A DNA stretch of 27,940 nt from a virus. The DNA lies in the IMG/VR virus record IMGVR_UViG_3300030117_004777, positions 3,324 to 31,263 of that record, one strand, 5' to 3'. Of this stretch, positions 1 through 26,999 are shown piece after piece (within the stretch, counting starts at the first letter, position 1; each line of letters opens with the position of its first letter). The notes under the pieces were generated by a model. That model saw only the letters and a list, made by a program, of their open reading frames with translations, was not told the DNA's origin and did no database searches. A program made the translations under genes and the position numbers.

Positions 1-20
1 GCCCCGCCGTGACGCAGAAT

Positions 21-501
21 TACTACACCCGCATGCCTTGGACGATACGCTAGGCGTCGGTCGGCTGCCATCAATCCCCGAACAAGGCAGGCGCGAACGC
101 GCCAAGCAAAGCCTTGTGAGAGAGGATTGATAGGTAGGGCGGGCGTATCGTCCGGTCGGGTGTGGTACATTCTAAGACTAGGCGTGGCTGTAACCAGTGC
201 CGCAGTCATGGTGCAAAGGACATTATGACAAACAAACACACCCTGCATCGACCTGACTGTCAGGCAGTTAGTTTGTAGTATGCTGATAGTGAGCAGCGAA
301 TTGGAAGGCTAGTGACGCACTACAAGCAACACTCGAGACAGGCAGGTCAGTTGGCAGTTGCAGAACTAGATGCGTGAGCAACCAATGCCTGGTAGTCGCA
401 ATGCATGACGCAGAAAGCTGACACCTCATCAACTAAATTCCGAACTTAGCAGAGAATGCATTGACAAGCAGATAAGAAGAAGTTTACAGTGCTTTCTGCG
501 T
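21..501 (+). ncRNA. candidate large structured non-coding RNA (left end may lie outside the window)
   Basis: No convincing protein gene lies before 520, and the first 120 bases are about 62% GC in an otherwise AT-rich genome. Complementary segments nest. 21-31 pairs with 157-167 (11 bp, one G-U), 40-50 with 143-153 (11 bp perfect), 65-77 with 124-137 (one bulge) and 82-88 with 111-117, ending in a hairpin at 90-103. Further candidates are 177-183 with 387-393, a hairpin at 232-276, a small hairpin at 310-322, and 408-418 with 491-501 (11 bp perfect). By simple counting, about 0.03 perfect 11-bp matches are expected by chance in 500 bases. I infer the plus strand because the flanking genes run that way; complementarity alone does not settle strand. 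Known large phage RNAs such as GOLLD and ROOL, or a packaging RNA like that of phi29, are possible analogues, but I recognise no specific family signature. A DNA-level role (packaging site, genome end) is the main alternative. Confidence 0.55.
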
Positions 502-519
502 ACATAGGAAAGTAAGTCC

Positions 520-885
520 ATGACAAGACAACTCACCACAAAACAGACGGCATTGGTTGATGCGCTCGTAGCAAACGGATGCAGTATCAAAGAGGGTGCT
601 AGATTGGCTGGATACGCAGAAGGGGAAAGCGGCAGAGTCACGGCTAGCAAGGCTTTGAAGCTACCTCATGTCCAAGCATACATGATGCAGCGCGTATCCG
701 AGACAATCGGTCTAAACGCTACGAAAGCTGTAAGTAAGGTACTTGAGTTATCTACGAGCGCAAAGAGTGAGTATGTCCAACTGGAAGCGTCCAAAGACAT
801 CCTAGACCGCGCAGGTCTGAAGGCTCCTGACAAACACATGCACCTACACGCAGGGGATATTAGTGTCAACATAGACTTAAGCTAA
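520..885 (+). CDS. terminase small subunit (TerS-like)
   Basis: A 121-residue protein with an N-terminal helix-turn-helix-like segment (about residues 5-35, TTKQTALVDALVANG then IKEGARLAGY), followed by ASKALKLPHVQAYM and a helical region. This layout is typical of small terminase subunits that recognise phage DNA and load it on the large subunit for packaging. Length fits the family. Its position at the head of the virion block, upstream of the terminase large subunit, supports the call, although about 3 kb of other genes separate the two. The ATG has only a weak purine-rich stretch upstream (around 507-512). The 3' arm of an 11-bp helix of the upstream structured region ends 18 bases before the start, so folding there could affect translation. 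Confidence 0.8.
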   Translation: MTRQLTTKQTALVDALVANGCSIKEGARLAGYAEGESGRVTASKALKLPHVQAYMMQRVSETIGLNATKAVSKVLELSTSAKSEYVQLEASKDILDRAGLKAPDKHMHLHAGDISVNIDLS

Positions 886-1040
886 GCGGGCTAGGGGTCA
901 AAAAGTCGCTGACAGTTGCTAGCGAGTGGTGGCTTACAAACATTATTTCTTCTCAAGGCTCGCAAAAAAAAGACTTGCTTCTCAAATAGGTTTTGCTGGA
1001 TAGTGTGTCTTAGAAATATTTTTTATCTAAAAGGTTCGAT

Positions 1041-2573
1041 ATGGCTATCATTCCAGAGAACTTAACTTCATTTGCTAGGTTTGTGATTGGCAATCAGGTT
1101 GCCTCGGTTCTTGGTAATAATGTTCAGGGTTCAACAATGGATGTGCAGGGTCTAAGCCCTGGTATAAAAGCTGTTATGCATGCAGCTATTGCTAACGCTA
1201 AGAAGGCTGGCAGAACACAGGTTAAGTATGAAGATTATCCAAAGCTAGTTACTGGCGAGAAGGTGCGGGATGTAGTTTATGGTGTAAGGGATAACATCAG
1301 CTATGCTCGAATGATTGGTCAATCTTTTATTGATCCAGTTCTTCAGACTTCTACCTTGCTTGGTCAATTCTCATTTACTGACAAAGGGGATGGGTCTTTT
1401 GACATTGTAGATGAATATGATTTTTCTAAGAAATCTTTTAAGATAGGTTCTTCTGTTAAAGAAGATGATTATCAAAAGATACGAGACTTTGCTGGTACAC
1501 AACAAAAATATTCTTGGAATATTCGTGGTACTTTACCAAGTAATATTACCCCTTCTGGTCAAGCGGTATCTTATGTTGCTGGCAAAGGTAAAAATATAAA
1601 AGAGAATGTTGCGTCTTCTATAGCTTCTATAAGCGATGAGATAAAAGATTTTAGCGAGGCTACAGATGAATTATCTCAAGAAACTATAGCAGATATTGCG
1701 GAAACTTCTGGTAAAATTAGTGCAGGTATTTCAGATATTGCAAGTGTAGTTGCACAAACAGGGACAAACTATGCCTCAAGGTTTTTCACAGCAATAGAAA
1801 ATGAATTATCTTTAGATGCTATTGCAGATGAAAACATAACTACAGAAAAATTTTCACCAGAGGCATTGGCAACTATTAAGCACAGCTTAGATAAATATTT
1901 TACTGCTAATCCTAATCAGACAGAAGTTGAAACAAGCTCTGGTTTTCTTGGCTTTGATAGCGAAACATTAATGGATCAAGTGGTTGCAAAACGCACACCA
2001 GATGGTGGCTATCAGTTGGTAGATGCTAGTGACCCTTCTCAAAATAAAAATATTCTTGTTGCTGGCAGGCGCTATGCACAAGGTCTAGCCGAGCAGGTTG
2101 ACCAAGCAATTACATCAAGCACCGATTGGTTTGCTAATCAATTCCAAGAAGACAGCATTAATATTGATATTAAAATACCGCCAGTAATTGAAGCTGTATC
2201 TGATGCAATGGACGATTACTTTGGTATTGAAGAAACTGCAATGATTCCTAAGTTTAGACCAAATCCATTAACTAAATCACGAAGAGATAAGATGTATGCG
2301 GTTCTTGATAAAACAGAACTACCTGAAGTCGAGCAACCAAATAATTTAGATGTGCTAGGTTTTGGTGAGGCATTTGCTCGTAGCCGTAATGCGGGTCAAA
2401 GAACCTTTACTTGGCGCGGTAATGATTATACAACTTTATATAAGGAAGAGCAGGAGTCATTAGATGGCGAAAACACCAGCATGGACACGCAAGGAGGGCA
2501 AGAACCCAAAGGGGGGATTGAACGCAGCGGGTCGCAGGTCGTACAAACAGGGGACACTCAGACCGCCAGTTAA
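1041..2573 (+). CDS. unrecognised 510-residue phage protein, possibly virion-associated
   Basis: I cannot name a function. Residues about 62-165 look like a compact domain, with the motif LLGQFSFTDKGDGSF followed by EYDF. I have a loose memory of similar YDF-containing segments in other phage proteins. Residues about 185-245 are rich in S, I, E and D with heptad-like spacing, suggesting a long amphipathic helix or coiled coil. The C-terminal third is mixed. The ATG at 1041 has an AAGG stretch upstream. The last about 36 residues overlap the next gene (start 2464) in another frame and are low in hydrophobic residues, so the natural end may be near residue 474. It lies between the small and large terminase genes and reads with them. 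A structural or ejected protein is a guess from size and place. Confidence 0.6.
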   Translation: MAIIPENLTSFARFVIGNQVASVLGNNVQGSTMDVQGLSPGIKAVMHAAIANAKKAGRTQVKYEDYPKLVTGEKVRDVVYGVRDNISYARMIGQSFIDPVLQTSTLLGQFSFTDKGDGSFDIVDEYDFSKKSFKIGSSVKEDDYQKIRDFAGTQQKYSWNIRGTLPSNITPSGQAVSYVAGKGKNIKENVASSIASISDEIKDFSEATDELSQETIADIAETSGKISAGISDIASVVAQTGTNYASRFFTAIENELSLDAIADENITTEKFSPEALATIKHSLDKYFTANPNQTEVETSSGFLGFDSETLMDQVVAKRTPDGGYQLVDASDPSQNKNILVAGRRYAQGLAEQVDQAITSSTDWFANQFQEDSINIDIKIPPVIEAVSDAMDDYFGIEETAMIPKFRPNPLTKSRRDKMYAVLDKTELPEVEQPNNLDVLGFGEAFARSRNAGQRTFTWRGNDYTTLYKEEQESLDGENTSMDTQGGQEPKGGIERSGSQVVQTGDTQTAS

Positions 2574-2772: not shown

Positions 2773-2933
2773 AAAAAGTTTTTGAAATAAAGGTTAGAGT
2801 AAAAGTATTGGAAGCATTAATGAATACAACTGATAAAGCAAAATTTGAAGATGCACTATCTAAGGAGCAAATAGAAGAGCTTCGTAAGATAGCGGAACAG
2901 CAGGAAGAAAATAGACCAGAAGGAGACACATGA
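2685..2933 (+). CDS. small hypothetical charged protein
   Basis: An 82-residue reading frame whose first about 29 residues overlap the previous gene. The part after 2772, from about KVFEIKVRVKVLEALM onward, is rich in K and E, looks helical, and ends in an acidic tail, so it is a plausible real protein. The start is uncertain. The ATG at 2685 has a poor Shine-Dalgarno, while an internal ATG at 2821 is preceded by GGAAG and would give a 37-residue product. It ends in an ATGA-type overlap with the next gene, consistent with translational coupling. I do not recognise the family. Confidence 0.5.
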   Translation: MGRIFESRREKESRRYFTQKQSQETKESIEKVFEIKVRVKVLEALMNTTDKAKFEDALSKEQIEELRKIAEQQEENRPEGDT

Positions 2934-3070
2934 TGCCTATGGGAAAAGGAACATATGGAAGTCAAGTTGGTCGCCCACCTAAGAAGAAGAAGAAATCTCT
3001 TCTTACGGCGAAACAAAAGACATTACCACGTTCGCTTCAAAAGCGTATCTTAGCCTCAAAGAATAAGTAA
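2930..3070 (+). CDS. 46-residue lysine-rich microprotein
   Basis: A short frame opening ATGATGCCTATG (MMPMGKGTYGSQVGRPPKKK). A run of five lysines follows the GRPP motif, then a basic helix-like tail. AGGAG at 2921-2925 gives a good ribosome-binding site, and the ATG overlaps the previous stop. The MGKGTYG...GRPPKKK opening resembles small proteins I recall from marine phages, but I know no function. GRP motifs followed by lysines can bind AT-rich DNA minor grooves (AT-hook-like), so DNA binding is a reasonable inference. Its stop overlaps the next start (TAATG). Confidence 0.65.
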   Translation: MMPMGKGTYGSQVGRPPKKKKKSLLTAKQKTLPRSLQKRILASKNK

Positions 3071-3246
3071 TGGCTAAGTCTAGAGTTAATGAAGCTGGTA
3101 ATTACACTAAGCCTACAATGCGAAAGAACTTGTTTAATCGCATCAAAGCTGGTGGCAAGGGTGGTAGACCTGGGCAGTGGTCTGCTCGTAAAGCACAGAT
3201 GCTAGCTCGTGCTTATAAAAAAGCTGGAGGCGGTTATAGAAACTAA
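3070..3246 (+). CDS. 58-residue basic protein, DUF5872-like
   Basis: A compact protein starting MAKSRVNEAGNYTKPTMRKN, continuing LFNRIKAGGKGGRPGQWSAR and ending KKAGGGYRN. The pattern (VNEAGNYTKP, R-LF--IKA, G-PGQWSARKAQ-LA--YK-AGGGY) matches my memory of DUF5872, a small family of unknown function found in phages and large viruses. It is basic and compact. It starts in a TAATG overlap with the previous gene and ends in the same arrangement with the next, so the whole run is probably translated as one coupled unit. Confidence 0.75.
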   Translation: MAKSRVNEAGNYTKPTMRKNLFNRIKAGGKGGRPGQWSARKAQMLARAYKKAGGGYRN

Positions 3247-3449
3247 TGTTTGAAGCAATTATAAAAGAAATATTTATTAATTGTGTTTACATTTTGCAGG
3301 TAATTGGTGGTAGTCCTGGCGAGTTTGGTCATGGGTATTATTTAGCAAATATATTAATATTTGTTGTTTTACAGCCTAGCCTTATTCTTTTATTCTTTTG
3401 GCTTTGGAGAAAAGAAAGATGGCAAAGAAAAAATCTCAGCAGTCATTAG
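3246..3449 (+). CDS. small membrane protein, function unknown
   Basis: A 67-residue protein with two hydrophobic stretches, about residues 5-22 (IIKEIFINCVYILQVIGG) and about 31-53 (YYLANILIFVVLQPSLILLF), then a basic tail containing WRKERWQRK. By the positive-inside rule the tail should face the cytoplasm. It starts at a TAATG overlap with the preceding gene and overlaps the next by about 30 bases. It is far from the lysis block, so a holin role is not assumed. I recognise no family. Confidence 0.55.
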   Translation: MFEAIIKEIFINCVYILQVIGGSPGEFGHGYYLANILIFVVLQPSLILLFFWLWRKERWQRKNLSSH

Positions 3450-3661
3450 TTAGTTGGACTAAGCAGAAATGGCGCACCAAGAGTGGCAAGCCTTCTGCTA
3501 AAACAGGTGAGCGATACCTACCTAGTGCTGCTATCAAAAGTCTTACTGCCGCAGAGTATGCCGCAACAACAAGAAAGAAACGTAAAGATACTCGTGCTGG
3601 CAAACAGTTCTCCAAACAGCCACGCGCTATTGCCAGAAAAACAAGGTCATATAGAACATGA
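3419..3661 (+). CDS. 80-residue basic protein, conserved small phage family
   Basis: Starts MAKKKSQQSLVSWTKQKWRT, with GERYLPSAAIKSL and EYAATTRKKRKDTRAGKQF in the middle, and a very basic end. The TKQKWRTKSGK...GERYLP...EYAATT pattern resembles a small conserved protein seen near terminase genes of other phages; no function is known to me. A longer start at 3398 is possible, but the ATG at 3419 follows GAAAG and gives the usual MAKKKS opening. It ends in ATGA overlap with the next gene. Its high positive charge fits with the other basic proteins of this run. Confidence 0.7.
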   Translation: MAKKKSQQSLVSWTKQKWRTKSGKPSAKTGERYLPSAAIKSLTAAEYAATTRKKRKDTRAGKQFSKQPRAIARKTRSYRT

Positions 3662-3873
3662 ATCAGATTACATCTAGTAATGGCTTCTTACATACTTTGA
3701 ATGATGAGGAGCGCAGGATACTTAGAAAGATTGTAAAGAAGGTACACCTAGCATATCACCCTACAGAGTTTCAGACTGATAGAGAAGCTGACAAGATGAT
3801 TGCAGTTATCGGACCCGAAGTCGTAGAGCGCATGCTAAAGTTTGGTGTAGATCACAAAGTTGACGAACTTTAA
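3658..3873 (+). CDS. small hypothetical protein upstream of the terminase large subunit
   Basis: A 71-residue protein with the segment LNDEERRILRKIVKKVHLAY and a C-terminal helix EVVERMLKFGVDHKVDEL. It starts in an ATGA overlap and overlaps the terminase start by 14 bases. It is predicted to be helical, with mixed charge and no transmembrane segment. I recognise no family. The tight coupling to the terminase large subunit suggests co-translation with it. Confidence 0.6.
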   Translation: MNQITSSNGFLHTLNDEERRILRKIVKKVHLAYHPTEFQTDREADKMIAVIGPEVVERMLKFGVDHKVDEL

Positions 3874-5380
3874 TTACAAACCTGATGGTCAAATACTCAA
3901 AGACTTTATGAAAGATAACTCTTTCTTTCGTGGTATTCGCGGACCCGTTGGTAGCGGTAAGTCTGTTGGCTGTTCTGTAGAGGTGTTTCGCAGAGCGTGT
4001 ATGCAAGAGAAAAACAAAGATGGTATACGCCAAAGCAGATGGGCTATCATTCGTAACACTAACCCACAGCTTAGAACTACAACAATCAAGACATGGTTAG
4101 ATTGGTTTCCAGAAAATGATTGGGGCAAGTTTACATGGTCTGTCCCATACACTCATCATATTAAGAAGGGCGACCTAGACCTTGAGGTTATCTTCTTGGC
4201 TCTTGATCGACCAGAGGATGTGAAGAAACTATTGTCACTTGAGTTGACAGGCATATGGATTAATGAGGCAAGAGAGTTGCCTAAGTCCATCATTGATGCA
4301 TGCACGATGCGTGTTGGCAGGTATCCTAGTATGCGAGAAGGTGGGCCGAGTTGGTCTGGTGTTATTGCAGATACTAACGCACCAGAAGAAGACCACTGGT
4401 GGTCTATTATGTCGGGTGAAGCACCTGTGCCAGATTATATAAATGCAGAAGAAGCTAAGATGTTAGTCAAGCCTGATAACTGGCTTTTTTTTACACAACC
4501 GCCTGGCATGGTTGAGAAGCGCGATGAAGATGGCAATGTGGATGAGTATCTGCCTAATAAGGACGCAGAGAACTCAAAGAACATGCTTGATAACTATTAT
4601 ACAAATCTTATTAGAGGTAAGAGTAAAAGCTGGATTGATGTCTATGTAATGAACCGACTTGGTGCAATCCAAGATGGTAAACCAATCTACAATATGTTTG
4701 TGCGTGATACTCATGTGGCGCAAGAAGAAATACCTGTTGCTGCAGGTGTGCCTGTCTTCTGTGGACTAGACTTTGGCTTGACCCCAGCGGCTATCTTTGG
4801 GCAAAAGGTGCGCGGTAGATGGCTTATCTTGCAAGAGATAGTTGCCTTTGATATGGGCATAGTGCGTTTCTCTGAAATACTAAGACAAGAGATAGCAACA
4901 CGATATGGTGCTTGCGAAGTAAATATATATGGCGACCCTAGTGGTGATTTTAGAGCGCAGACCGATGAGTCTACACCGTTCCAAGTTTTGCGCGGGGCGG
5001 GTTTAATCGCTCGTCCCGCACCAAGCAATGATGTGAGTTTACGCATTGAAGCTGTGTCTGCACCATTGAATAGAATGGTAGATGGACATGCTGGCTTTCT
5101 GATTGATCAAAGATGCAAAGAAACTATTAAAGGCTTTGAGGGTGGCTATCAGTATAGGCGCATACAAGTATCTGGTGAGCGTTATGATGATAAGCCAGAT
5201 AAAAATAGATTTTCTCATATACATGATGCACTACAATATTTGATGCTAGGAGCAGGGGAAGGGCGCGAAGTTCTAGGCAATTCACGACAAGCAAAGGTAT
5301 TTAACGCTCGTACTGACTATGATGTGTTCACAAGAAAACCAAAAGGAAAACGTAGACAAGGACTGTGGGCAAGGCTATAA
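3860..5380 (+). CDS. terminase large subunit (packaging ATPase and nuclease)
   Basis: The motor that pumps DNA into the prohead and cuts it. The ATPase domain shows Walker A GPVGSGKS at residues 28-35 and a Walker B-like segment GIWINEAREL at 131-140 with E136 as candidate catalytic glutamate. The C-terminal RNase H-like nuclease carries CGLDFG (D304), NIYGDPSG (D359) and a late HDALQY (D456), the expected acidic triad. At 506 residues it is normal length. The best start is TTG at 3860, overlapping the previous gene; it keeps NFNYKPDG, which matches the usual N-terminus. The next ATG (3908) would remove part of the lead-in to Walker A. A low-efficiency TTG start may help keep motor levels low. 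Confidence 0.95.
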   Translation: MTNFNYKPDGQILKDFMKDNSFFRGIRGPVGSGKSVGCSVEVFRRACMQEKNKDGIRQSRWAIIRNTNPQLRTTTIKTWLDWFPENDWGKFTWSVPYTHHIKKGDLDLEVIFLALDRPEDVKKLLSLELTGIWINEARELPKSIIDACTMRVGRYPSMREGGPSWSGVIADTNAPEEDHWWSIMSGEAPVPDYINAEEAKMLVKPDNWLFFTQPPGMVEKRDEDGNVDEYLPNKDAENSKNMLDNYYTNLIRGKSKSWIDVYVMNRLGAIQDGKPIYNMFVRDTHVAQEEIPVAAGVPVFCGLDFGLTPAAIFGQKVRGRWLILQEIVAFDMGIVRFSEILRQEIATRYGACEVNIYGDPSGDFRAQTDESTPFQVLRGAGLIARPAPSNDVSLRIEAVSAPLNRMVDGHAGFLIDQRCKETIKGFEGGYQYRRIQVSGERYDDKPDKNRFSHIHDALQYLMLGAGEGREVLGNSRQAKVFNARTDYDVFTRKPKGKRRQGLWARL

Positions 5381-11015: not shown

Positions 11016-13462
11016 TGGCAAGAGTACGCATACCTTTGTCCAGCTTTGAGTTTGGTGAATTAAGTGGTTCTTTAACAAGCCGTGTTGATACTAATGTATA
11101 TACTGCTGCAGCAGAGCAGATTAGAAATCTATATATTCGTGCAGAAGGTGCTGTAGTAAAACGCCCTGGCACAAAGCGTTTATATAACTTTTCTGCACCA
11201 ACTTATGATTCAACTAAACGCATGCAAGTTAGGCTTGAGCCTTTTGTGTTTAGTGATGATGAAAAGTATATCTTTGCGTTTAGTGATAACAAGTTAGATA
11301 TATTCCAGATCAATGCAACCACAGGTGCAGTATCTCATATTCAAGCTGTAACAACAGATGTTAATAGTGTTGCTGTACCTTGGGATGTTACCTATCTTGA
11401 GTCTTTTACATATGTGCAAAAGGGCGATGTGTTTTTTATTACGCATCCATCTTTTGCTATACGCAAGATAGTAAGAACATCTTTAACCACATTCCAAGTA
11501 GAAACATATGCGTTTGATGAATCACCAGCAGGTGATTTGACTTATATGCCTTTTTTCTCGTTTCAAAGTCCAGGCGTAACAATTACGCCAACAGATACGC
11601 AGTCATATACAACAACAGCAGCAGAAGGTATTCACTCCTCTGAACCAGCTATAGACCTTACTGATGCAAGCAGTTTCCCATCATCTGGCAGAATACTTAT
11701 TGGTTCTGAGGTAATTACTTATACAGGTAAATCAGGTAATACACTAAATGGATGCACTAGAGGTACATTTAATACAACTGCTGCGGCGCATGATAATGGC
11801 TCTACTGTTACTTATTGCCCTAAAGTAACAACAAGTGCTGCATACTTTAGTACCGCATATATTGGCTTGAGATTACGCATAGGTGATTCTGAGGTATCTA
11901 TTGTTGGCACAAGTGGCACAACACAAGCAGCTGTTGTTGTCTTGGATGTTATCAGAACAACCCTTGATGTAGATGCAATAAGAACTATTGATGGGTCAAC
12001 AACAATACAAATAACACATGCACTACATGGTTTATCTACAGGTGATAGTGTTACTATTGATCGGGCAGCAGCCGTTGGTGGAATCAATGCAAACCAAATA
12101 AACGGCTCAAGAACAATTACTGTGCTTGATGAAAACAAATATGAAGTTACAGCAGGAGCAAGTGCAAACCTTTCTACTGATGGTGGTGGTCAGCCACGCA
12201 TAGCATCAACAGCTGCTACTACAGAATGGTCAGAACAAAGTTACTCATCATTAAGAGGCTATCCAAGCGCAACAACTTTCCATGAAAATAGATTATGGTT
12301 TGCTGGGACACCATCGCAACCTGATCAAATATGGGCATCGAAGTCTGCGGAGTATTTTAATTTTGATATAGGAACAGCATTAGACAATGAGTCTCTTGAC
12401 CTAACATCTAATGTTGGTGACATCTTTACTATTAGGCATCTTGTAAGTAATCGTGACTTGCAGATATTCTCTACTACTGCAGAACTATATATTCCAACAA
12501 GTACAACAAAACCTATTACACCAACCAGTGCTGTTATTAGAAGACAGACTCCATTTGGCACAGGCTTTGCCAGACCAATACCTTTAGATGGCGCAACTCT
12601 ATTTACTGATCGAAGCGGTAAGTCTGTTCGTGAGTTTTTGTTTACTGAGGGTGAGGATGCTTATACTGGGGGTAGTATATCTGCATTGGCATCGCATTTG
12701 ATTGTAACGCCAACACAACAGCTTGTGGTTTCTGGTGCAACAAATAGACCAGAAACATATGCATACTTTGTAAACAGTGATGGCACGCTTGCTATCTTTT
12801 ATACTATTAGGGGTGAGAAGAAGCAGGGCTGGTCACTTTGGAATACACAGGGTAAGTTTCATTCTGTATGTACTATAGAAAATAGATTGTTTGTAGCATC
12901 TGCCAGGGATGATGGTAGTGGCACTACAAAGTTCTTTTTAGAAGAGTTTGACGATGAAATGCCTATGGACTTCTGTGATGAGTTTTCTGCGACGGCTGGC
13001 GTATTTAGTAGTCTTGGCACTCATTTTGCTAACGATGCTGTTGTAAAAGCTGTAAATGGCACCGATTATCTTGGTGAGTTTACAGTTGCTAGCGCACAGA
13101 TTGACGTTAGCGACGCTAAAGATAATGTTACGACAGGCTTTCTTGGCTATTCATTTACACCGATTTTGAAAACATTACCCATAGATAGCTATGGTACAAG
13201 GCTTGGTGTACAGATGACAGGTATGCCTAGAAAACTAACAAATGTTGTATTAGACTTGGTGGATACAATGTCTATTTCTGTAAACAGTAATGACTTGATT
13301 ACAAGAAATGTAACTGATGATATGTCTACAGATAGAACGCCAGTTACAGGCAAACGTGAATTTAAGTTATTGGGATATAGTCGTGACCCAAGAGTAACTA
13401 TATCTCAAAGTGCGCCATTAGATATGCAACTTAATGGCATGGTAGTAGAGGTAAGTAGATAA
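11015..13462 (+). CDS. tail tubular protein B (T7 gp12-like nozzle)
   Basis: An 815-residue protein forming the tail nozzle. The N-terminal block SFEFGELSGSLTSRVDTNVY, IRNLYIRAEGAVVKRPGTKR and the later HENRLWFAGT are hallmarks of gp12 relatives. Two extra small beta domains lie in the middle: about residues 212-258 (SGRILIGSEVITYTG...TRGTFNTTAAAHDNG) and about 325-390 (THALHGLSTGDSVTI). Both are module types often inserted in phage tail proteins and may be surface decorations or adhesion modules. AGGAG precedes the ATG. Confidence 0.92.
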   Translation: MARVRIPLSSFEFGELSGSLTSRVDTNVYTAAAEQIRNLYIRAEGAVVKRPGTKRLYNFSAPTYDSTKRMQVRLEPFVFSDDEKYIFAFSDNKLDIFQINATTGAVSHIQAVTTDVNSVAVPWDVTYLESFTYVQKGDVFFITHPSFAIRKIVRTSLTTFQVETYAFDESPAGDLTYMPFFSFQSPGVTITPTDTQSYTTTAAEGIHSSEPAIDLTDASSFPSSGRILIGSEVITYTGKSGNTLNGCTRGTFNTTAAAHDNGSTVTYCPKVTTSAAYFSTAYIGLRLRIGDSEVSIVGTSGTTQAAVVVLDVIRTTLDVDAIRTIDGSTTIQITHALHGLSTGDSVTIDRAAAVGGINANQINGSRTITVLDENKYEVTAGASANLSTDGGGQPRIASTAATTEWSEQSYSSLRGYPSATTFHENRLWFAGTPSQPDQIWASKSAEYFNFDIGTALDNESLDLTSNVGDIFTIRHLVSNRDLQIFSTTAELYIPTSTTKPITPTSAVIRRQTPFGTGFARPIPLDGATLFTDRSGKSVREFLFTEGEDAYTGGSISALASHLIVTPTQQLVVSGATNRPETYAYFVNSDGTLAIFYTIRGEKKQGWSLWNTQGKFHSVCTIENRLFVASARDDGSGTTKFFLEEFDDEMPMDFCDEFSATAGVFSSLGTHFANDAVVKAVNGTDYLGEFTVASAQIDVSDAKDNVTTGFLGYSFTPILKTLPIDSYGTRLGVQMTGMPRKLTNVVLDLVDTMSISVNSNDLITRNVTDDMSTDRTPVTGKREFKLLGYSRDPRVTISQSAPLDMQLNGMVVEVSR

Positions 13463-25726: not shown

Positions 25727-26200
25727 CTATATGATAGGTTTAGATTTTGGGGTTGGTAATGTATCTTTTGGTGTTTGTTTCTTTGGTGCTTGTTCTTTGT
25801 CTTCACCTTCTGGCAGGTCTTCACCTGCGTAGATGTATAGACCAAGACCATGAAACGCCATTGCTTTGGTTAGGCAGCGCTGTAATGCAGTGTTGATGTC
25901 TTTTGATGTAGGATTAGTTATTGGATTGTTTCTGTTGTCCATAACATAAAGTAACTCAGTCATAGGTGCATAACCCTCTTCTCCAATATCAACTGTAACT
26001 TTTACAAAAGCTGTACCATCGGGTCCAAAAAACGCAGGGTATCCATCTGCATTTGTGTGTTTTTCAAATGATGCATTTGGAAATATACCTTTGAAATATT
26101 GCCATGCCCAAGCCCAAGAGAGATATGTAAATCTACCTTTGGCTTCTGTGTGTTCATTCACATTTAGTTCTCGTATTTCTTTGAATCGTTTATCTGTCAT
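25727..26200 (-). CDS. Sak-type (DUF1071) single-strand annealing protein
   Basis: A 157-residue protein of the Sak/DUF1071 family of phage recombinases. Conserved blocks are YLSWAWAWQYFKGIFPNASF near residues 26-45, and a C-terminal NTALQRCLTKAMAFHGLGLY followed by IYAGEDLP. These proteins anneal complementary single strands generated by an exonuclease. A tail of about 27 charged residues follows. The 11-base overlap with the exonuclease gene upstream and a GGAG before the ATG show tight coupling. Confidence 0.88.
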   Translation of the reverse strand: MTDKRFKEIRELNVNEHTEAKGRFTYLSWAWAWQYFKGIFPNASFEKHTNADGYPAFFGPDGTAFVKVTVDIGEEGYAPMTELLYVMDNRNNPITNPTSKDINTALQRCLTKAMAFHGLGLYIYAGEDLPEGEDKEQAPKKQTPKDTLPTPKSKPII

Positions 26201-26999
26201 CGTTTGTCTCCTTTATCTCTACGATGCGTATTGCGCCACGCTTGTCACGACGGACGCATAATATATCTGAGTAAATCTCAGACTCGTCATTGCCAAGCAT
26301 AGCCTTAAGACTCTTCTTGGCGTTCTCATGCGTTTGTGCATGTGTTCTGTTTTCAATGTAGGTATGGGCAACATCCATGAACTGGTTGTCTAATGATCCG
26401 TCTCTGCGTGTCATTTTATCTACTGGTATCTTGTCAACAACAGCTTGAGAAATAGGCGGTACGCCTACTTCTGGTTCTGTATCATCTTCAACATGTTGCC
26501 AAAACTTATGAGCATAAGTCACCATTGCTTCAATGTAAGTATCATCACGTTCTATTTCGCTTACATGATAACCACTGTTGCCAAAGATAACTGACAACCA
26601 TGCGTGTTGTGTGCCAGACAAATACATATAGAACTGCACTTGCGGCATATATTTTTGTATGCACTGGTTCATGTTTGTAAATGCGTTGGTGTGTTTACAT
26701 TCAACAATCTCACGCTCTTTATCATTACAGAGTATTCCATCTGCAGTACCGCGCAAGTAATCATGCACTGGATGTGTAAGGGGTACGTTGCGTTTGAGTG
26801 TGTGTTGATGCCCAAAGCCTGTCTCTTGCAAAAACCAATCAAGGTTAAAGTCTTCGGTGTGTTTGCCAAGCTGTACAGGAAGCACATCTGATAGGTCAGG
26901 AGGGGCTTCTCGCCCTGTCTTCTCCAGCCATAGGCTGTGCCAATCGTTTTCTAAAATACGGCTCATATCAGAGCCACCAATAAACTTGGTTCTATCCAT
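26190..26999 (-). CDS. YqaJ-type viral exonuclease
   Basis: A 269-residue PD-(D/E)xK nuclease of the YqaJ/lambda-exonuclease superfamily. Motifs are IGGSD at residues 7-11, GKHTEDF with E49 (45-51), GTADGI with D87, VECKHTN with E100 and K102, and PQVQFYMYLSG with Q120 and Q122. These enzymes chew one strand of duplex DNA to expose single strands for the annealase next to it. GGGAG precedes the ATG. The gene overlaps the annealase start by 11 bases, as expected for a coupled pair. Confidence 0.9.
   Translation of the reverse strand: MDRTKFIGGSDMSRILENDWHSLWLEKTGREAPPDLSDVLPVQLGKHTEDFNLDWFLQETGFGHQHTLKRNVPLTHPVHDYLRGTADGILCNDKEREIVECKHTNAFTNMNQCIQKYMPQVQFYMYLSGTQHAWLSVIFGNSGYHVSEIERDDTYIEAMVTYAHKFWQHVEDDTEPEVGVPPISQAVVDKIPVDKMTRRDGSLDNQFMDVAHTYIENRTHAQTHENAKKSLKAMLGNDESEIYSDILCVRRDKRGAIRIVEIKETNDDR

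Follow-up and report, generated by a model that had tools for sequence, protein, structure and literature searches.

The question raised by this locus is what kind of element fills the 519 bases leading up to the terminase small subunit gene (terS) of a marine phage. The sequence analysed (hereafter the window) is the 27,940-nucleotide interval G000:C1:3324-31263 within a virus record of 31,263 bases. On its plus strand, terS (window 520-885; phrog_2538, E 7.7e-13) is followed by the late genes, with terL at 3860-5380 and thereafter a portal-type adaptor and the major head protein. Immediately left of the window edge, the record sequence holds a run of 10 N and, beyond it, a block of minus-strand genes; given this order of left block and terS, window 1-519 separates the late operon from a divergent early gene, which will be called X. 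The sole cultured close relative found is the Pelagibacter phage EXVC031P Hodr, accession OQ414635, in which the corresponding region is at record bases ~11880-12800; its terL and its terS are 66% and 60% identical to those of the window genome, respectively.

A nucleotide search with window 1-900 against phage records returned no match. Among the surrounding genes, a DUF932 gene lies farther to the left (L002 948-1820), and a 510-aa reading frame at window 1041-2573 is without a PHROG match; its 3' end is shared, in a different frame, with the following gene (2464-2772), and its homologue in locus L003 is similar in the second part only.

Folding of the stretch upstream of terS

The initial annotation had described window 21-501 as a large, highly structured, non-coding RNA of no recognised family and with a GC-rich left side. 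These general properties were borne out: window 1-519 is non-coding and folds far better than shuffled sequences (z -5.2 on the plus strand and -3.4 on the minus strand), the GC content is 60% at 1-200 and drops to 44% by 401-600, and searches against Rfam came back empty for the window (at gathering score), for window 1-540 (at E<=10) and for 19 related loci. The rod noted near 21-167 was likewise recovered, with 15-170 folding at -81.7 kcal/mol (z -6.9), a value equalled by no shuffle. This inner rod (window 16-173, plus strand), which sits near the tip of the hairpin described below and is retained when the whole element is folded, comprises the helices 16-20 with 169-173, 21-31 with 157-167, 40-51 with 142-153 (including the exact 11-bp inverted repeat 40-50/143-153), 65-69 with 133-137, 70-77 with 124-131, 82-88 with 111-117, and 90-94 with 99-103, the last bearing an apical GGCGCGAACGCGCC that is also present in L003. 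In the whole-element fold, two small plus-strand hairpins (window 184-229; 184-188 with 199-203 and 205-213 with 221-229) stand between the inner rod and the right arm, and the ATG at 225-227, with ACAAAC after it, is a mirror of the X start region.

The suggested tie to GOLLD, ROOL or the packaging RNA (pRNA) of phi29 turned up nothing in its favour. The phi29 pRNA has a conserved fold and fewer than 200 nt; the element here resembles it as a structured phage element near packaging genes and differs in having no Rfam match to the packaging RNA family. GOLLD and ROOL are large ornate phage RNAs with conserved branched folds recognised by Rfam, often located near tRNA islands (PMC12286853). They share with the present element a large, structured, RNA-like character in a phage and a function that is unknown there too. 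Unlike these RNAs, the element studied here lacks a conserved sequence and forms a rod without branches, tied to the gene next to it; no tRNA was found in the window, and no covariance-model match to GOLLD, ROOL or OLE was obtained in the window, window 1-540 or the 19 related loci.

A hairpin of about 1,000 bases shared with gene X

Each region was aligned with its reverse complement, sequence beyond the left window edge being included, and its right part proved to be complementary to X. In the window genome, the right arm (window 232-611, plus strand) pairs with X at G000 2876-3310 (window -447 to -13), in the minus-strand gene left of the window, and the aligned arms (G000 2878-3310 and 3555-3932, the latter being window 232-609) reach a score of 210. 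A scan of the whole 31 kb for self-complementarity has a median of 27 and one peak, which is the hairpin, and Hodr shows an equal score, likewise as one peak. Against shuffled arms, the main part stands at z 52 and the parts reaching into terS at z 10-17. The minimum-energy fold of G000 2876-3934 (window -447 to 611) is one continuous rod of about 1.06 kb, and the folded stretch G000 2871-3960 attains -512 kcal/mol on the plus strand and -476 on the minus strand, compared with -330 +/- 12 for shuffled sequence. The stretch within the window is the tip and right arm of a hairpin of about 1,000 bases, the other half of which lies inside X.

Several features of the earlier model were superseded by this larger fold. 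Once the sequence to the left is included, pairing with X takes the place of the long-range helices that had been put inside 177-501, and the 11-bp inverted repeat 408-418/491-501 is exact as described, its halves lying opposite gene X in the full fold and not paired with each other. The limits of 21-501 also gave way on either side, the rod extending left past the window edge and right by about 90 bases into terS, the first ~90 bases of which are the outer end of the right arm in the window genome. An inverted chimera produced by assembly or amplification was rejected as the origin of the hairpin because the arms differ at many positions, and because the repeat occurs in independent contigs and in the cultured Hodr and is absent elsewhere in the same contigs. 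The 10-N scaffold gap (L002 3314-3323) falls near the start codon of X, within the hairpin, and the break in the assembly at this point was probably caused by the inverted repeat.

Gene X itself comprises several sequence families that are not joined by BLASTP (22, 13, 9, 6 and 5 members, plus singletons). The family containing the X of the window genome has a conserved core, ARDACYTSNN in most members, on which ground X is regarded as a real protein; it has no significant match in Pfam or PHROG. A member of this family is predicted to fold as a long helical hairpin (pLDDT 82), for which the PDB offered generic matches only, a few uncharacterised phage proteins being matched as well. The nearest relative, L003, is 85-92% identical to the window genome in both flanks, with no detectable similarity between them. 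The two hold wholly different X genes and intergenic regions in the same place (L002 2478-3857 and L003 2374-3772), as an exchanged cassette. X and the hairpin having been swapped jointly between flanks that are alike, the gene and its mirror travel as a unit.

Spread of the hairpin and its coupling to X

The inverted repeat was sought in the 66 loci with enough sequence, some near-identical contigs being counted, and a score above 60 was taken as significant. Such a repeat lies near terS in 42 of the 66 and elsewhere in the same contigs in none (0/66); the five loci added after the test had been set up all pass (5/5, scores 65-484). In 51 distinct loci, the 300 bases lying 100-400 upstream of terS have a mean z of -5.0; the value for control coding stretches is -0.36.

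Across the loci, the rod is kept through wide variation in sequence and length. The arms of L077, L035 and L028 reach some 520-600 bases and take in X entirely, those of L077 and L035 having the appearance of near-whole inverted copies of X, and the scores of L111 and L112 are as high. In the longest versions, the end of the hairpin is the X terminator, the natural 3' end of the X mRNA. Most other loci have arms spanning the X leader, the Shine-Dalgarno sequence, the start codon and the early part of the coding sequence. Right arms are frequently truncated, and the X side then bulges out. Long arms are missing from L003 and about a third of the loci, several of which still fold strongly. The idea that bulges recur regularly with each helical turn, taken from L028 and L035, was discarded as the block lengths are too variable (CV 0.4-1.2).

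The feature common to nearly all repeat-bearing lineages is not rod length, loop or sequence; it is the presence of the X translation start in the left arm. Almost every such lineage mirrors the X start region, and the Shine-Dalgarno sequence of X is usually paired. A packaging or assembly role, put forward from the position beside terS, is unsupported: the near-constant paired part is the X start region and not terS, and the right arm in most lineages stops about 85-125 bases before terS, just upstream of the terS promoter. The rod might instead act as a structural or decoy RNA, a long and imperfect double strand that would occupy a host RNA-binding protein or RNase, with the overlap of X doing no more than saving space. 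Its persistence through wide variation in sequence and length, as well as the shortened right arms with their bulges on the X side, would fit such a role, which is nevertheless considered very unlikely, as it leaves unexplained why the X start should lie inside the arm in nearly all repeat-bearing lineages.

Judged from its sequence, the right arm is an inverted and degraded mirror of the X of its own phage, covering the leader, ribosome-binding site and start, and sometimes the whole gene. Right arms match their own X with a mean score of 82, compared with 20 for the X of other lineages, and the own X is the best fit in 20 of 24 cases; the remainder are weak or involve very close relatives. 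In L086/L088, identity between X and arm of one lineage is 73-77%, as against 61% between the two X genes and 46% between the two arms. Across four related loci, 29 of 114 consensus pairs carry two-sided, pair-keeping changes, several of them inside the X coding region; coming from four sequences and an energy-chosen structure, these changes support the coupling, short of proving selection on the structure. The two-sided changes in the close pairs L030/L025 and L035/L039 cluster near the tip, may reflect block replacement and were given no weight. The GC content of X at fourfold sites inside the arm is 0.34 versus 0.29, an excess so slight that it is mainly the right arm which adapts to X. The start codon of the X mimic in the right arm is lost or altered in 11 of the 22 lineages tested, and also in L015, L034, L026, L068 and L013; a mimic without a start codon is to be expected if it is transcribed but must not be translated. 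A diversity-generating retroelement was rejected as the source of the changes, which are not adenine-specific: C and T change as well as A, and the shift is towards G and T. As a separate observation, L049 (~1485-1950) and L050 have right arms that are 99% identical and left arms that differ at 21%, with 23 pairs broken, apparently the result of a recent recombination that left a poorly matched hairpin.

Strand bias of the mismatches and possible control of X

Wherever one strand has a G.U pair, the opposite strand has an A.C mismatch, and the imperfections of the rod can hence be read for the strand on which pairing is kept. Over 34 loci, plus-strand G.U outnumbers A.C by 450 to 105, with 31 loci leaning towards G.U and 1 the other way. 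The controls give about 1.3-1.4 to 1 overall (220:169 for right arms set against the left arms of other lineages as a control for composition, and 439:304 for late coding DNA), and among positions at which neither arm is coding the excess persists at 109:36. There is little strand bias in the window itself (11:8) or in Hodr (6:6). Mutation bias was rejected as the source of the excess in view of these composition controls and of the fourfold, neutral sites in these genomes, which are AT-rich and G-poor; changes towards G are therefore not ascribed to mutation pressure. The bias points to selection for pairing on the plus strand, most simply in an RNA that would be transcribed towards terS; the pattern would be no different if pairing were selected against on the X mRNA strand.

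The same bias bears on two further explanations. As a DNA element, the hairpin could form in single-stranded plus DNA, or as a cruciform, and serve replication, recombination or the start of packaging at terS. It does sit at a divergent junction beside terS, its pairing enters terS in some genomes, and the early block of the phage encodes a recombination pair, the single-strand annealing protein Sak and an adjoining YqaJ-type nuclease (window 25727-26999, minus strand). Since a cruciform predicts no strand bias, and an excess of G.U over A.C is an RNA-like signature, this explanation is considered very unlikely. About as improbable is that inverted duplications of X arise repeatedly at this place and then decay with no function: the copies do look lineage-specific, and L077 and L035 resemble near-whole inverted copies, but such duplication accounts poorly for the confinement of the repeat to one position in most lineages, whose genomes are compact, for strong folding in lineages with unrelated sequence, and for strand-biased changes towards G against an AT-rich neutral composition.

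The reading preferred here, held tentatively and with somewhat less than even confidence, is that the locus encodes a lineage-specific hairpin or antisense RNA which controls X. X is the likely target because its translation start lies inside the left arm in nearly all repeat-bearing lineages. The plus strand would be transcribed as an RNA running towards terS, the 5' arm of which, being antisense to the X leader, Shine-Dalgarno sequence and start, could pair with the X mRNA and block ribosome binding. The 3' arm, as a mimic of X, would keep the RNA folded and thereby limit or time its action around the early-to-late switch; the antisense arm would be held in the hairpin by the mimic, and its release would be needed for action.

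Control by fold-back on the opposite strand is an unlikely alternative, with precedents in the fold-back inhibition of IS10 and in the early and late messages of T4. A minus-strand X mRNA starting near terS would carry the right arm as a 5' leader folded over the ribosome-binding site and start of X, and X would be translated only from transcripts starting inside the hairpin. Consistent with this, the constant paired part is the X start region with its usually paired Shine-Dalgarno sequence, the longest hairpins end at the X terminator, and the rod also folds well on the minus strand (mean z -5.5), the two strands of Hodr folding equally. Against it, the mismatches on the minus strand are A.C and not G.U, by 31 loci to 1, and no recurrent minus-strand promoter was found at the outer end of the right arm. 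The scan for promoters of both transcripts found no recurrent plus-strand promoter at the left end of the hairpin either; the terS promoter alone recurs.

The antisense reading finds its closest bacterial parallels in cis-antisense RNAs over translation starts and in IS10-type fold-back leaders, in which the pairings are of tens of bases. Complementarity to the X translation start is present here by construction, on the plus strand of the left arm. The complementarity that an IS10-type leader would need at the X ribosome-binding site is also seen, with the mismatch bias pointing to the other strand from that of such a leader. The predicted RNA is like these regulators in matching, by complementarity, a nearby gene at its ribosome-binding site and start, and unlike them in a pairing of 100-600 bases and in a second arm that mimics the gene. 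Obelisks, viroids and hepatitis delta RNA likewise form one continuous rod of about 1 kb that includes coding sequence; the hairpin here differs from them as part of a DNA phage genome, with no sign of an independent circular RNA.

Young plant microRNA genes arise by inverted duplication of their target. Hairpin RNAs (hpRNAs) of Drosophila are born in the same manner (PMC10317233). The phage hairpin shares with both its length, arms derived from the gene they match, lineage specificity and fast change, and its arms resemble the target of the same lineage (82 versus 20, as above). In contrast to hpRNAs, it overlaps the gene itself in antisense, and to our knowledge RNAi machinery is absent from bacteria. 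More doubtful than this control of X is the broader proposal that Hodr-related marine podoviruses make a giant hairpin RNA, with one arm antisense to the adjoining early gene and the opposite arm remade time and again as an inverted mimic of that gene, as a phage counterpart of target-derived regulatory hairpin RNAs.

No description of such an element was found in the literature, most subscription papers lying outside the search. Phage non-coding RNAs are usually found through a conserved sequence or fold, and this hairpin has neither; it is missed by family-based searches because it is conserved only as complementarity to whichever gene adjoins. It occurs across a broad group of marine phages, one of which has been grown on Pelagibacter, and should the control of X prove true, it would represent an unrecognised kind of gene control in ocean phages that is testable in the cultured phage.

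Last of all, the leader of terS has features of its own. A promoter-like TTGACA-18-TTACAG (window 461-490, plus strand), assigned by consensus match only, precedes terS, and TTGACA recurs at this place in most relatives. Most relatives have a pair of G runs, each of six to eight bases and separated by a few others, between a TTTGTGCGTTGACA promoter box and terS, about 20-65 bases before terS (for example GGGGGGGAACACAAGGGGGGG; L023 1400-1490). The pair is absent from the window, L003 and L083. With four GGG tracts, these runs could possibly form a G-quadruplex in the late leader or serve as a regulator site.
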